Virus record (IMG/VR): IMGVR_UViG_3300025684_000867
Location: 1-26,740 of that record
From: a virus
Direction: 5' to 3' (one strand)
DNA: 26,740 nt
Below the pieces are notes generated by a model. It had not been told where the DNA came from. It did not search any database and worked only from the letters and a program-made list of their open reading frames with translations. How positions within the stretch are numbered: position 1 is the first letter of the stretch; each line of letters begins with the position of its first letter. This document shows, piece after piece, positions 1 through 26,740 of this stretch. Both the position numbers and the translations under genes were made by a program.

Positions 1-236
1 TCGTGATAGTCACTAACATTTTGATGTGCAATGGTGTAAATATCACCACGACTAATCCCAATATCAGACAATTCAGCGTTTGAAAGTTTATTCAACTCCT
101 GAATAGTTTTAGTAACATCTTTTGCTTTGCGATACGAAGCATGAAGCCCGATCAAATAGTTTCCGACAACTTTAAAGAGTTGTACGGCTGGAGTGATTAC
201 CGTCAGTTTCGGTAAGTAATTGACTGTTGTAGTCAT
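1..236 (-). CDS. DUF1127 (YjiS-like) domain protein, 3' end beyond window
   Basis: Reading the minus strand from ATG at 236 gives an open frame to the window edge (about 78 codons). It begins MTTTVNYLPKLTVITPAVQL and contains IQELNKLSNAELSDIGISRG. That is the hallmark of DUF1127: a leucine-rich helix followed by L-S-(D/N)-x-E-L-x-D-I-G-(I/L)-x-R-x-D-I. The start is supported by GAGGA about 9 bases upstream, inside the preceding hsp20 gene, so the two genes overlap by about 65 bp in different frames and are probably co-transcribed. DUF1127 proteins are small and common in proteobacteria, especially alphaproteobacteria. Some are linked to RNA turnover or metabolic control, but no activity can be assigned here. 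The family call is fairly sure; the function is unknown. Confidence 0.72.
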   Translation of the reverse strand, partial: MTTTVNYLPKLTVITPAVQLFKVVGNYLIGLHASYRKAKDVTKTIQELNKLSNAELSDIGISRGDIYTIAHQNVSDYH

Positions 237-660
237 TTGTTAATTCCTCGTTTTTTCCAATTTGAATTTTACGAGGACGCATTTCTTCTGGAATGACATA
301 CTGCAATTCAATTGCCAGAATACCATCCTGAATATCTGCTCCGTTTACATTTACATGTTCGGACAGCCTAAAGGTTCGTTTAAATTTCTTTGTAGAAATG
401 CCACGATGGATAAATTCTCTTCCTTTAGAAACGTGTTCCCCTGTAACAGTCAAGGTTCTATCTTTAACTTCTACAGATATCTCATCCTTTGTAAACCCAG
501 CAATAGCTAATTCAATCAGATAATCAGATTCTGATGTCTTAATAATGTTATGTGGGGGATAGTGGTCTTGAGCATGTTTTGCAGTGAACTCTAGTTCATT
601 GAATAGATGATCAAAACCCACAAAGGATGATCGCGGGAATAGTTGTTGTAAGCCTGTCAT
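172..660 (-). CDS. hsp20: Small heat shock protein, Hsp20/IbpA family
   Basis: A 162-aa alpha-crystallin-type chaperone. The N-terminal GFDHLFNELE and YPPHNI segments are typical of the IbpA group. The crystallin domain (about residues 38-135) contains YLIELAIAGFTKDEISVEV, the GREFIHRGI segment, FKRTFRLSEHVNV and DGILAIEL; this last strand is near the end of the domain. Hsp20 proteins hold unfolding proteins in an ATP-independent way in the cytoplasm, and related genes occur in T4-like cyanophages. The ATG at 660 is preceded by AAAGGAGATAACA, an excellent ribosome binding site. The gene has its own sigma70-like promoter (724-752), separate from the replication cluster upstream. Its end overlaps the DUF1127 gene. 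It may protect host or virion proteins during infection, which is inference. Confidence 0.93.
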   Translation of the reverse strand: MTGLQQLFPRSSFVGFDHLFNELEFTAKHAQDHYPPHNIIKTSESDYLIELAIAGFTKDEISVEVKDRTLTVTGEHVSKGREFIHRGISTKKFKRTFRLSEHVNVNGADIQDGILAIELQYVIPEEMRPRKIQIGKNEELTNDYNSQLLTETDGNHSSRTTL

Positions 661-5388: not shown

Positions 5389-6446
5389 GCTACTTCTAAG
5401 GTTTGAGCTTCTAACATAAGGTCCGACATCTGAGATTTAATCTTATCTTTATCCAGATCAGTGTCAACAGCGTCAATGTAAGTATATAATAAAGCAGAAG
5501 TATCTTCAACTGATATTTCACTATCTTGGACATTTTCTCCAATAAATTCGTTAAAGTTTTCTGCTATCTTAAGCTCAAGTATATTACGTTGTTGTAGTCT
5601 ATCAATGAACTTATCAAACACAAACGTATCAGTTTTATTAATTACAGTCACCTTAATAAACTTACCTTCTACATCATCCAAGGGGTAATGAAGATAATCA
5701 CACTCACTATCATCATATCTGATACGATGGAAAAGGGTGTGTGGGTTATGAATAGAAGTGAGTTCCCTAGTCTCAGTATCGAGTATATGAAAATATTTTT
5801 TATCATGCGCATCATTCCAAAAGAATTCCATTTGTGATCCAAGATACTCAATATTATCTTGCTGAGACTTAGTGTGGAAGTGACCGGATAATACCTTCTC
5901 GAACCGCTTAAATATAGAGCGGTTTAGTCCATGCTCACATTTACGGCCTTTCATCATCTCATATCCTTCGATATCAAAATGACCACCAAGCCAATCACAT
6001 TTAGCATTAGCGATAAAGTCTAATGATTGCGCTTCGTTCTCAGCTGAGATCCAAGGGACTAGGCCAAGCTTAAATCCGGCATAATCCATCACAGTAGGCT
6101 CATGAAGTATATTTACTTCATTCATATAATGACCTAAGAGCTCCTTGAGAGAGTTAAGCTCATTAGTGTTCTTATAGTATGTGTCATGGTTACCACAAAT
6201 GATATCCATAGTAATGCCATGGTCTCTTAACGGTTTAAGAAAGTGATTGCGGTTACGGTTAAGAGCACGGAAGTTGATAAACTTCCTGTTATCGTAGTAA
6301 TCACCAAGATGCACAATATGCTTAATATTATGTTCCAAAAGATAAGGAAAGAATACATCGCTATAAAATCTTTCTGCATTATCGAGAAATATGTCGCTGC
6401 TATTGCGAGTACCACAGTGAGTGTCATTTAGAAGGGCTATTTTCAT
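5385..6446 (-). CDS. 47: Recombination nuclease subunit gp47 (SbcD/Mre11-like)
   Basis: A 353-aa metallophosphoesterase (T4 gp47 is 339 aa). Metal-binding motifs occur in order: LLNDTHCG (5-12), HLGDYYDNRK, CGNHDTYY, GGHFDIEG and SGHFHTKS. It is the nuclease partner of gp46. The start at 6446 (MKIALLNDTH) is chosen because the family begins this close to the first motif and GGAG lies 9-10 bases upstream. An upstream ATG at 6482 would add twelve residues with no family support. The start lies inside the end of the small gene at 6424-6597. Confidence 0.96.
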   Translation of the reverse strand: MKIALLNDTHCGTRNSSDIFLDNAERFYSDVFFPYLLEHNIKHIVHLGDYYDNRKFINFRALNRNRNHFLKPLRDHGITMDIICGNHDTYYKNTNELNSLKELLGHYMNEVNILHEPTVMDYAGFKLGLVPWISAENEAQSLDFIANAKCDWLGGHFDIEGYEMMKGRKCEHGLNRSIFKRFEKVLSGHFHTKSQQDNIEYLGSQMEFFWNDAHDKKYFHILDTETRELTSIHNPHTLFHRIRYDDSECDYLHYPLDDVEGKFIKVTVINKTDTFVFDKFIDRLQQRNILELKIAENFNEFIGENVQDSEISVEDTSALLYTYIDAVDTDLDKDKIKSQMSDLMLEAQTLEVA

Positions 6447-11593: not shown

Positions 11594-11626
11594 TGTAAAA
11601 AAAATACTAAATACTGAAAATAACAG

Positions 11627-11655
11627 TTGCACTTAGTACAAAAAGAGGGTATGAT
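11627..11655 (+). promoter_or_regulatory. Plus-strand sigma70-type promoter 1
   Basis: TTGCAC (11627-11632), a 17-base spacer and TATGAT (11650-11655) on the plus strand. Transcription would start near 11662, about 20 bases before the ATG of the 63-aa ORF. It is close to, and divergent from, the late promoter at 11586-11593. Confidence 0.75.
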
Positions 11656-11681
11656 ATATGTATAAACAGAAAGGCTACAAA

Positions 11682-11873
11682 ATGCAACCAATCACATTCA
11701 CTCAAACAATCGCCAATCAAATCCCTGTAGGTCTTGGTCGTTACGACCAAATCTTCGCAGCTAAAGAATTAATTCTTAAAACAGACTCTGCTATCCTAGC
11801 TACATGCAGAGAGACTCTAGAAGAAATCGAAGAAATTATTTACCAAAGAGAGGGAATTAACAGTTGCACTTAG
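11682..11873 (+). CDS. 63-aa protein of unknown function, plus strand
   Basis: The only credible protein gene on the plus strand. It starts MQPITFTQTIANQIPVGLGR and ends in a charged helix-like segment (CRETLEEIEEIIYQREGINS). The ATG at 11682 is preferred because AAAGG lies 8 bases upstream and because the first in-frame ATG, at 11658, would fall before the expected transcription start of promoter 1. The stop TAG (11871-11873) lies within promoter 2, whose -35 box is inside the final codons. No family is recognised. Codon use looks like that of the neighbouring genes. It may be an early host-takeover protein, but that is only a guess from size and promoter type. Confidence 0.65.
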   Translation: MQPITFTQTIANQIPVGLGRYDQIFAAKELILKTDSAILATCRETLEEIEEIIYQREGINSCT

Positions 11874-11892
11874 GATAAAAAGAGACTATAAT
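11864..11892 (+). promoter_or_regulatory. Plus-strand sigma70-type promoter 2
   Basis: TTGCAC (11864-11869), a 17-base spacer and a consensus TATAAT (11887-11892). The predicted start near 11899 leads straight into the structured RNA; no open frame with a credible ATG follows. Almost the same sequence as promoter 1. Confidence 0.78.
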
Positions 11893-11898
11893 AAGTTA

Positions 11899-12080
11899 TC
11901 AACTGAGGAGATAAGAGACTATTTTGTACATACGTCTGTGTAGAGGCGTTGATCAGCTAAAAGCACTATCTCATGTGAGATGTTAGTTTCAATCGAACTA
12001 GAGCGGCAATGTCAATAAGGCCGTGCGGGGAGATTGGAGATACTAGCTCGGGCGTATGTACAAAATAGTTTTAATAAGTT
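11899..12080 (+). ncRNA. Structured non-coding RNA closed by a 17-bp stem
   Basis: Downstream of promoter 2, ACTATTTTGTACATACG (11918-11934) is the exact reverse complement of CGTATGTACAAAATAGT (12053-12069), a perfect 17-bp stem that three A-U/G-U pairs could extend outward. Hand folding of the enclosed 118 bases gives an inner stem AGCTA/TAGCT (11955-11959 with 12044-12048) and three successive hairpins. These are ATCTC-loop-GAGAT (11968-11981), TAGTT with a 7-base loop and AACTA (11984-12000), and GCGGC/GCCGT (12003-12024). No ORF longer than 20 codons with a plausible start lies inside. The true 3' end is unknown; the GC hairpin at 12089-12106 is a candidate. It does not match any RNA family I can name; tRNA and tmRNA were considered and do not fit. 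Confidence 0.65.
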
Positions 12081-12107
12081 AAAAAAAAGGGCCGCGTGAG
12101 CGGCCCT
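12081..12107 (-). terminator. Rho-independent terminator after the capsid gene
   Basis: On the minus strand GGGCCGC-TCAC-GCGGCCC (stem 12089-12095 with 12100-12106) is followed by eight Ts (12081-12088). It lies 24 bases after the stop of gene 23. On the plus strand the same hairpin is followed by TAGTTATTT, so it may also weakly stop the plus-strand RNA. Confidence 0.93.
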
Positions 12108-12130: not shown

Positions 12131-13462
12131 TTATGTTAAGATGTTGTCTACGCGGAAGATTCTGTAGTACTGGTTTGTACGAGCTGTAGCAAGACCATCT
12201 GCAGGTGCAGCACCTACGAATGGGTTAGACGCCATGCCATAACGAGTTTTAAACCCGATACGTGGCTGGAAGTCATTCTCACCTACTGCACGTACCATTG
12301 TGAGCGGTACGTATGGGCAATAGAACAGACCAGCATCATAAGGGTTAGTACCTTTATAACCTACGTTGATATAATCTGTAGTTGCATATGGGTCGATATA
12401 AACGCGGATACGGCCATTCATAACACCTGCGAAAGTATTACCTGTGTCGTCTACGTTCAAGTTGGTTGACAACGCTGGGCTGTAATCCAACATACCGGAA
12501 GCTGCAAGAGCTGAAGCAACATCAGAAGAGCAGATAATAAAGTTACCTTTACCTCTACGAGTTTCTTTTGCGATTGTGTTAGCTTCACGGTCAAGCTGCA
12601 CGCCCAGACCTTTGAACTTCTCTGCTGACCAACGACCATCTGCATCACTTGACAAGTCAAAGATACCTTTGGTTGTTACGTTTGCTTGAAGTGCACCGAT
12701 TTTAGCTTGGCTATTGATTGTGCGAACTACTTCACGGTTAATTTCAGCCAAGATTTCAGTTGACAAGATGTTTGCCAATTCTGTCTCAGCGTCAAGACCG
12801 TGGATAGCTTTCAAATCTTGTGCAAGCTCGAGTGTATACTCTGCTTTCAATGCACGCGACTTCGCTGTCACAGTTGCTTTTTCAATGGTAAAGCCCATTT
12901 CAGCAAATGATTCACCAGTGTTACCTAGTGCTTCAGCTTCTGCTGTAGTGTATGCGTCACCTGTTACTGGTACATAAGATGAACCGGAGTCAGCAATAGA
13001 ACCGCTACCATTTGTATCAGATACACCAGCAAGCCCTGATGGACCTTCTGAACCACCTGAAGTTGTGGACGAGTCACCGGAGAAGTTTACTGCTGCTTCA
13101 TTAAACAGAGCTTCATCACCATTGGATACGCCAGCTTTAGTTGTTTTGTACTTGGACTTCATTGCGAAGATCAAGCCAGTTGGACCTGACATTGGCTGAA
13201 CGCCACAAATGTCATAAGCCATCAAGTTTGGCATCGCACGACGTACAAGTGAAATCAGAATTGGATTCCAGTTAGCAGCTGCACCTGTTGAGTTACCTGC
13301 TGTTTCGTTAAGTTGACCCTGCTCTTGCAAGGCAATTTCTGTATTCTCGAGAACGACTGCGGTTACTGCACGCTTAGAGGCATTTTCAATTACGCCTGCT
13401 GAAGATTCGTTAAGTACCGGAGCCCATTTTTCTACGAGACGGTCATAAGTATTCATTTCCAT
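12131..13462 (-). CDS. 23: Major capsid protein gp23
   Basis: A 443-aa capsid protein (T4 gp23 is 521 aa; marine forms are shorter). Recognisable segments are NWNPILISLVRRAMPNLMAY, DICGVQPMSGPTGLIFAMKS, the EMGFTIEKATVTAKSRALKA region and the C-terminal FFxPR-like ENDFQPRIGFKTRYGMASNP. A likely prohead-protease cleavage site is LNE (residues 51-53), fitting the (L/I)-x-E consensus and removing a 53-residue delta-like peptide just before the conserved core. The ATG at 13462 has GGAG 8 bases upstream. It is followed by a strong terminator, as expected for the most abundant late product. Confidence 0.98.
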   Translation of the reverse strand: MEMNTYDRLVEKWAPVLNESSAGVIENASKRAVTAVVLENTEIALQEQGQLNETAGNSTGAAANWNPILISLVRRAMPNLMAYDICGVQPMSGPTGLIFAMKSKYKTTKAGVSNGDEALFNEAAVNFSGDSSTTSGGSEGPSGLAGVSDTNGSGSIADSGSSYVPVTGDAYTTAEAEALGNTGESFAEMGFTIEKATVTAKSRALKAEYTLELAQDLKAIHGLDAETELANILSTEILAEINREVVRTINSQAKIGALQANVTTKGIFDLSSDADGRWSAEKFKGLGVQLDREANTIAKETRRGKGNFIICSSDVASALAASGMLDYSPALSTNLNVDDTGNTFAGVMNGRIRVYIDPYATTDYINVGYKGTNPYDAGLFYCPYVPLTMVRAVGENDFQPRIGFKTRYGMASNPFVGAAPADGLATARTNQYYRIFRVDNILT

Positions 13463-24460: not shown

Positions 24461-24477
24461 TAATAACACTGTTATTA
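24461..24477. other. Palindrome at the end of the FG-GAP gene
   Basis: TAATAACACTGTTATTA is a perfect palindrome around one central base. It includes the TAA stop of the FG-GAP gene and ends 4 bases before the -35 box of the promoter at 24428-24456. No T tract follows, so an operator is at least as likely as a terminator. Confidence 0.55.
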
Positions 24478-25731
24478 AATATCTAATATATGTTTTGAAT
24501 TAAGAGGTATATCGTAGATATAAACCGATCCTGAATCAGTGCCATTATCATCATTATATCTTGCACCAATAACAATTTTTCCTGATCCTATAGCAACTCT
24601 ATCCCCAAATCCATCACCTGCAGCAGCATCACTGGCGGTTATCTTAGCTAGCTGAGTCCCATCTAAATCAAAAATGTATGCTGATCCTGAGCCAAAGCCA
24701 TTGTCCTGATCAAATGGTGCACCAACTATAATTCTGCCGTTTCCCACTGCTACTGATGAGCCGAAATTGTCCTGGGCAGCTGCATCACTAGCAGTAATCT
24801 TTGTTATCAGGTTTCCCTCTAAATCATAAACATATGCTGACCCTGAGTTAGCGCCACCATCATCCTCTCCCTGAGCACCTACTACAATCCTACCGCATCC
24901 TACAGCAACACTACAACCAAATTGATCACCTGTATACGGATCACTATTGTTTAGCTTTGTTATTTCATTTCCGTCTAAGTCAAATATATAAGCAGAACCT
25001 GTGCTTGAAGCTACATCATCGTTGTTAGGAGCGCCTACTACAATCCTACCGCATCCTACAGCAACACCAATACCAAATTGATCACCTGCAGCAGCATCAC
25101 TAGCAAAAATTTGTGCTTGTGGAGTTTGGTCGATATCGTCAGGGTCCAAAGGGCTTTGACAGATATGAATTGCTCCTGCATCAGTACCACTAAAATCATT
25201 GTAAGGATCGCCGATTACAATCCGGCCACTTCCTACTGCTACTTCTCTGCCGAAATTCCTACTAGGATTAGTAGTGAGACGGGGACTAATCCTATTTTTA
25301 TAAGTTCCATCTAGATCATAGACATATACTGTTCCAATATTAAGTGTTCCGTTATCTCCATTAATTTCTCCAATAATAATACTATCTGATCCTACAGCGA
25401 CGCTATAGCCAAAATTATCACTGGTTCCAGCACCGGAGGGTGCGGTTATCTTTGCTATCTGAGTACCTTCTAAATCAAAGATATAAGCAGATCCTGATGA
25501 TGTTCCAGCATCATCATCAAATGGTACACCGACCACAACCCTCCCTGATCCTACAGCAACACTCCAGCCAAAAGCATCACTTGCGGCTGCATCGCTGGCG
25601 GTAATCTTTGTTTCATTACTATGAGTAGTGGTATTATCATAGCCTAAAGTAAATGAATTATTAGCATCCATCCACATATAGTCATTATCAAAATAAGCTC
25701 CATGTCCTGATGTTGATGTTCTAAATACCAT
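24475..25731 (-). CDS. FG-GAP beta-propeller protein, putative tail fiber/host-binding
   Basis: A 418-aa protein. After a 40-residue N-terminal part without repeats (FRTSTSGHGAYFDNDYMWMD...), seven copies of an FG-GAP-like unit follow, with FG phenylalanines at 54, 107, 160, 219, 271, 323 and 375. Each unit reads roughly D-x-F-G-x-x-V-A-V-G-x-G-R-I-(V/I)-(V/I)-G, then an acidic loop such as FDDD, then GSAYIFDLDG. Seven units match one closed seven-bladed propeller. FG-GAP propellers bind ligands on cell surfaces, for example in integrins. GAGG lies 7 bases before the ATG, directly after the 199-aa gene. The position before gene 13 is that of T4 baseplate/fiber genes, so a virion adhesin is the best guess. 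Confidence 0.75.
   Translation of the reverse strand: MVFRTSTSGHGAYFDNDYMWMDANNSFTLGYDNTTTHSNETKITASDAAASDAFGWSVAVGSGRVVVGVPFDDDAGTSSGSAYIFDLEGTQIAKITAPSGAGTSDNFGYSVAVGSDSIIIGEINGDNGTLNIGTVYVYDLDGTYKNRISPRLTTNPSRNFGREVAVGSGRIVIGDPYNDFSGTDAGAIHICQSPLDPDDIDQTPQAQIFASDAAAGDQFGIGVAVGCGRIVVGAPNNDDVASSTGSAYIFDLDGNEITKLNNSDPYTGDQFGCSVAVGCGRIVVGAQGEDDGGANSGSAYVYDLEGNLITKITASDAAAQDNFGSSVAVGNGRIIVGAPFDQDNGFGSGSAYIFDLDGTQLAKITASDAAAGDGFGDRVAIGSGKIVIGARYNDDNGTDSGSVYIYDIPLNSKHILDI
24508..25608 (-). repeat. Seven tandem FG-GAP repeats (52-59 codons each)
   Basis: Degenerate tandem coding repeat, visible also as DNA: gatcacctgcagcagcatca at 25079-25098 on the plus strand is nearly repeated in the neighbouring paralogue near 26498. 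The unit lengths, from one FG to the next, are 53, 53, 59, 52, 52 and 52 residues. Confidence 0.85.
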
Positions 25732-26347: not shown

Positions 26348-26740
26348 TTAATACCCAAGTGTTCTTTCAAAGTGTATGTCATAATTTTGAGGTAGCTTAT
26401 AAATGTAACCTGAGCCCGAACTATCGCCATTATCATCATCTAGCCAAGCGGTAGTAATAACTCTACCTGATCCTATAGCTACAGCTCTTCCGAATTGATC
26501 ACCTGCAGCTGCATCACTAGCGGTAATTTTAGCTATCTGAGTTCCATCTAAATCGAAGATATAAATTGATCCTGAGCTACCACCATCATCATCATCAAAT
26601 TGTGCACCGACTACAATCTTACCGTTTCCTACTGAGACTGCATGGCCAAAAGCATCACTCACAGCACCATCACTAGCGGTTATCTTTGTTATCTCATTTC
26701 CGTTTAAGTCAAATATATATGCTGCTCCTGCGTTAGACCC
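26348..26740 (-). CDS. FG-GAP beta-propeller protein, 5' end beyond window
   Basis: The open frame continues to the right edge, so only the last 130 codons are seen. It holds the end of one FG-GAP unit (GAAYIFDLNGNEITKITASD), then two complete units (DAFGHAVSVGNGKIVVGAQF and DQFGRAVAIGSGRVITTAWL), and ends in YKLPQNYDIHFERTLGY, different from the end of the paralogue at 24475-25731. A start within the window (GTG at 26662) would cut a repeat and is not credible. Probable fiber or adhesin subunit, as for its neighbour. Confidence 0.78.
   Translation of the reverse strand, partial: GSNAGAAYIFDLNGNEITKITASDGAVSDAFGHAVSVGNGKIVVGAQFDDDDGGSSGSIYIFDLDGTQIAKITASDAAAGDQFGRAVAIGSGRVITTAWLDDDNGDSSGSGYIYKLPQNYDIHFERTLGY

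Follow-up and report, generated by a model that had tools for sequence, protein, structure and literature searches.

GOLLD and ROOL are non-coding RNAs (ncRNAs) of phages and prophages that are found near tRNA islands and form homo-oligomers through evolutionarily conserved, intermolecular kissing loops (PMC12286853). The RNA element described here is likewise phage-borne, structured, and often situated beside tRNA genes. However, GOLLD and ROOL are ~600-900 nt long and assemble into nanocages, whereas the present elements are ~80-225 nt long, occur singly between genes, and are only predicted to oligomerize; nor does the element match the Rfam covariance models of either family. Closer in size are rnaC and rnaD of T4, stable RNAs of 119-139 nt that abut tRNA-Arg in the tRNA cluster of a T4-type phage, although their predicted fold differs from that of our element. 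Homology to them was also rejected, since the covariance model, with filters off, gave a best score of 11.6 bits in the T4 tRNA region, on neither RNA. Finally, T4-type phages are known to swap mobile regulatory cassettes, each composed of an early promoter and a simple stem-loop. These are also intergenic structured units, but the present element differs in being a multi-helix RNA with a covarying core.

The element was found in a window (the whole stretch of DNA analyzed) of 26,740 nt from a marine phage, spanning positions 1 to 26,740 of IMG/VR record IMGVR_UViG_3300025684_000867, in which T4-type genes are present, gene 23 among them. It lies on the plus strand, flanked by a 71-aa ORF upstream and by a convergent gene 23 (12131-13462, minus strand; Pfam Gp23), encoding the T4-type major capsid protein, and the local order is promoter, element, terminator, and gene 23. 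The promoter, TTGCAC-17-TATAAT (11864-11892, plus strand), was recognized from sequence, and its motif recurs in two related loci, L002 and L147. The preliminary description of this DNA had called it a consensus promoter, which holds for the perfect -10 hexamer (TATAAT, 11887-11892) and the 17-nt spacer but not for the -35 hexamer, TTGCAC, with only three of six matches; for this reason, it is absent from the list produced by a promoter scan of the window. A terminator hairpin (12088-12107), with a T-run on its minus side and a weak tail on its plus side, separates the RNA from gene 23, and because this terminator and a convergent gene come next, the window element serves no downstream gene. 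The ORF list contains no ORF of at least 60 aa within the element, in keeping with the earlier statement that no usable ORF is present. A 39-bp promoter-like block is duplicated with 85% identity, once at 11618-11656 for the 71-aa ORF and once at 11855-11893 for the ncRNA. Elsewhere in the window, and judged by translation only, a 162-aa ORF (172-660, minus strand) resembles Hsp20-type small heat-shock proteins, and two minus-strand ORFs (24475-25731 and 26348-26662) contain repeated VAVGSGRIVVGAP.. units of FG-GAP/beta-propeller-like character.

The element is closed by a long stem, P1. As originally noted, a perfect 17-bp stem is formed by ACTATTTTGTACATACG (11918-11934) and its exact reverse complement, CGTATGTACAAAATAGT (12053-12069), with 118 bases between them; the window has no other 17-mer inverted repeat within 300 nt, and 100 Markov shuffles produced none. 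The true extent of P1 is somewhat greater (~11915-11937 paired with 12050-12072). The minimum free energy lies far below that of shuffled sequences, both for 11899-12080 (-62.6 kcal/mol, z -5.8) and for 11915-12072 (-61.6 kcal/mol, z -6.5, plus strand), with the opposite strand of the latter folding at -41.0 kcal/mol (z -4.7). Inside P1, the P2 hairpin (11938-11966) is built of GUGU/GCAC followed by GG/CU around a conserved internal loop, and its apical loop carries the self-complementary tetramer GAUC (11951-11954, within UGAUCA at 11950-11955), which homologue comparison suggests as a kissing-dimer contact. P3 (11968-11981) is a variable hairpin that is absent, or ~40-80 nt larger, in homologues. 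P4 (11983-12046) comprises 11983-11987/12042-12046, a conserved internal loop, and 11988-11994/12032-12038, and forms an exchangeable apical module that encloses P5 (12003-12024), a GCGGC/GCCGU hairpin with a conserved 12-nt loop, AAYGUCAAUAAG. All of these parts lie on the plus strand.

Conservation of this architecture was evaluated with an alignment and covariance model built from 29 sequences. P5 served as the search seed, so its invariance in the alignment is by construction; P1, P2, and P4 were unconstrained and free to vary. In the RNAalifold prediction, which contains P1, P2, P4, and P5, 19 pairs are changed on both sides; the structure named above retained pairing in 99.6% of pair cells, with 18 such pairs. 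Its covariation was 0.297 compared with 0.156 in shuffles, a value reached by none of 500 shuffles, and pairing fell to at most 45% in control structures slid along the alignment. The two arms of P1 thus change together across homologues, and not independently. Among the innermost 18 pairs of P1, we counted 1435 Watson-Crick pairs, 129 G-U, 9 A-C, and 29 others; the large excess of G-U over A-C indicates selection on the plus-strand RNA, unlike what is expected of a DNA palindrome. It is nearly certain from these alignments that the plus-strand RNA keeps P1, P2, and usually P3, P4, and P5. One hairpin of the preliminary description fared less well. The tRNA-arm-like structure at 11984-12000 (5-bp stem, 7-base loop) can be drawn, and 94% of its cells pair, but it shows no covariation beyond that of shuffles and was rejected as a conserved pairing, its CAAUC being paired with GAUUG instead. 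A tRNA, a tmRNA, or a mimic of either was rejected as well, with neither ARAGORN nor Rfam returning a match, as the earlier reading of the fold had held. Taken as a whole, the covarying arms, the folding energy, and the lack of an Rfam match support the original proposal of a novel ncRNA whose closing stem surrounds a multi-hairpin core.

Homologues are numerous in viral metagenomes. Successive pattern scans recovered 14, 87, and at least 119 viral stretches, the last with a loose pattern for which many matches are due to chance, and the covariance model (R1) matched ~110 viral loci, all on viral metagenome fragments, some of which are duplicates or close kin; P2-based patterns located further elements beyond these. 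On contigs related through gene 23, the element is recognizable after the gene in L004 and L013, and in the close relative L002 an unrelated ORF occupies its place. R1 gave one match per record in 26 records of up to 275 kb. Diverged tandem relatives, scored low or missed by R1, were seen in L104, L108, L157, and L376, and in L104 (418-532), L108 (minus strand, ~5978-6069), and L157 (459-556) they stand directly beside a full element. In GTDB bacterial and archaeal genomes, an exact 21-mer pattern had no match and an exact 19-mer pattern had two, neither of which was recognized by the covariance model. Likewise, blastn with four variants against 50,697 phage records found no convincing match, and the model had none in the isolates C48C1, HTVC008M, Mosig, phiM12, and T4. 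Rfam 15 yielded no match at or above the gathering threshold for the element, the only matches in the vicinity of relatives being tRNAs, and sub-threshold matches fell on the terminator and not on the element. The best reading of these searches is a new family of phage ncRNAs of which the window RNA would be the first member, relative to the part of the literature covered; an earlier description is possible.

Members of the family appear modular. P3 ranges from missing to large insertions. The full P4/P5 module is present in most elements, but is reduced to a short hairpin in four (L184, L245, L281, and L288), and has almost disappeared from L289 and L293; L280 and L287 lack it and consist of P1 and P2 alone. 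In L281, L151, and L282, the flanks are common and the apical module differs. Conversely, the cores of L126 and L130 are identical but lie within different P1 stems, with an ORF following one of these two elements and tRNA-Pro the other.

The P2 loop shows a further regularity. Each of the 88 distinct elements examined has a self-complementary tetramer at one fixed position of this loop, although the loci are related and the counts are hence not independent: GGCC occurs in 29, CCGG in 27, GATC in 25, GTAC in 4, and GCGC, GGCT, and TCGG in one each, the last two being self-complementary only through G-U pairs. With G-U allowed, 36 of the 256 possible tetramers are self-complementary, and the probability that seven different ones would be so by chance is ~1e-6, assuming independence. 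All seven also occur in elements recovered with core patterns that leave P2 unconstrained. Elsewhere in the molecule, the tetramer had no fixed partner, and intramolecular pairing was rejected on this basis; the tandem variants L389 and L157:459-556 lack the self-complementary loop. The simplest reading of the tetramer pattern is that two RNAs probably kiss through their P2 loops to form a homodimer. A comparable behavior is seen in the retroviral dimer initiation site, a palindromic loop whose sequence varies while self-complementarity is kept, but the organism and context differ and no packaging role is implied here.

About half of the elements are tightly placed between genes. An element usually starts right at the upstream stop codon (0-7 nt after it) and stops 1-7 nt short of a tRNA (tRNA-Trp, Pro, Thr, or Asn) or a few nucleotides short of a start codon. 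It occupies the full intergenic gap and is collinear with the tRNA or ORF that follows. Before ORFs, the 3' arm of P1 ends in the Shine-Dalgarno motif GGAG in 30 of 44 elements, versus 3 of 40 elsewhere (P=6e-9, kinship ignored), and the 5' arm changes together with the GGAG-bearing 3' arm. Other settings also occur: L147 has the promoter-RNA-terminator arrangement of the window, L135 has RNA and terminator, and in L103, L111, L155, and L172 a TTGAC(A/C)-TATA-like start belonging to the next gene comes after the element. No constant class of downstream gene emerged, as tRNAs, several unrelated ORFs, terminators, and promoters all follow elements. The commonest is a 68-aa ORF, MRTVHYVGM..RVFGGPAYYHK, which is common in these phages (e.g., L105), belongs to no Pfam family, and has just one weak match in PHROG. 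An adjacent model match accompanies this gene in only 23 of 65 loci, or in 27 when counted less strictly, and by the stricter count is lacking in the other 42; the RNA is therefore not its obligatory regulator, and a dedicated regulatory role was rejected.

Other structured RNAs were observed in these phages. A second type (type B), with the core AGUACGAGCRAAGAA...GUAAAAUCCUGGURAGGGACUAAGUUAAGAC within a similarly long closing stem and no Rfam match, was seen at L131:10341-10460 (minus strand), at G007:63755-63878, at ~300-420 of L371, and in L381, L388, and L396. It is placed before tRNA-Trp or before the MRTVHYVG gene (the latter in L381, L388, and L396), and its variable arm bears a palindrome, absent in L371, whose sequence is not the same in all members (CCATGG, GCTAGC). 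In L376, L390, L389, L157, and L124, a further conserved structured stretch, GUGGG..GGUACC..GGAAACCC..GGGGAGRGGYWCUGCAG..CUCUCCCACG, abuts the 5' side of the element, its inner palindrome varying from CGGTACCG to TGGTACCA. Together, this stretch and the element look like an ncRNA island.

The explanation toward which we lean is a new phage ncRNA that would be released from transcripts via P1, would probably be homodimeric, and would act in trans. As is the case for phage tRNAs, the RNA would be produced on a transcript of its own or on a polycistronic one, and would be freed by a cut within the long P1 duplex (RNase III-like), by tRNA 5' processing, or by both. The processing stems of rRNA are long, freely covarying duplexes around a conserved core, and P1 appears to resemble them in both respects. 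Two copies would pair through their P2 loops. Once released, the RNA would act in infected cells, and its most likely partner, contacted via the exchangeable P4/P5 module, would be a protein or ribonucleoprotein of the host or the phage; we infer this trans function from context alone. Before ORFs, the 3' arm of P1 would also serve as the ribosome-binding site, with P1 folding or cutting probably gating translation, and the element may therefore have a cis role in processing or translation beside its trans action. It is less likely, though possible, that the element works entirely in cis, with P1 as an RNase-cut, end-protecting spacer that separates and stabilizes the mRNAs or tRNAs upstream and downstream of it and, as long as it is uncut, hides the ribosome-binding site of the following ORF; the core would then have no separate function. 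The tight fit between stop codon and tRNA or start codon, the Shine-Dalgarno motif within P1, and the use of the same stem style and sites by the unrelated type B core all agree with such a spacer. Against it, there is nothing downstream to regulate in the window, L147, or L135, the most frequent downstream gene usually lacks an adjacent match, and a cis role needs neither the loop palindrome nor conserved internal loops in P2 and P4.

The same Shine-Dalgarno placement, together with conserved unpaired nucleotides, would suit a riboswitch-type regulator in which a ligand at the core opens or closes P1, but this seems very improbable given that no alternative pairing was seen for P1, with its 18-25 near-perfect pairs, that the same cores also precede tRNAs and terminators, that the downstream genes are unrelated to one another, and that the core is dispensable (lost in L280). 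Improbable as well is a mobile cassette or recombination site that acts at the level of DNA, akin to a MITE or to the T4-type cassettes, and is conserved because it spreads. It would account for the differing sites among phages, the identical cores in different stems of L126 and L130, the replacement of the element by an unrelated ORF in L002 relative to the window, and the tandem copies in L104, L108, and L157. However, G-U far exceeds A-C in P1, the orientation is always the sense of the neighboring genes, and no transposase was noted beside the element. Moreover, a MITE would be expected in several similar copies per genome, and the single R1 match in each of the 26 records led to its rejection.

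A broader and more tentative suggestion is that, in marine T4-type phages and phages related to them, several unrelated small ncRNAs are grouped in islands and share one plan, namely a long covarying release stem, a core that can be exchanged, and self-complementary loops through which homodimers or larger RNA-only assemblies would form. If so, the window RNA would belong to an RNA system that serves infection, and its P4/P5 would be a head that is specific to the host and can be swapped. The loop tetramers, seven kinds and all self-complementary, are among the clearest sequence signatures of natural RNA homodimerization, in an RNA family that is widespread in viral metagenomes yet absent from Rfam and, it seems, from phage isolates. 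As such, its swappable core and a stem that doubles as a ribosome-binding site would make the role of phage tRNA-linked ncRNAs, including T4 rnaC/rnaD, GOLLD, and ROOL, testable in a small RNA.
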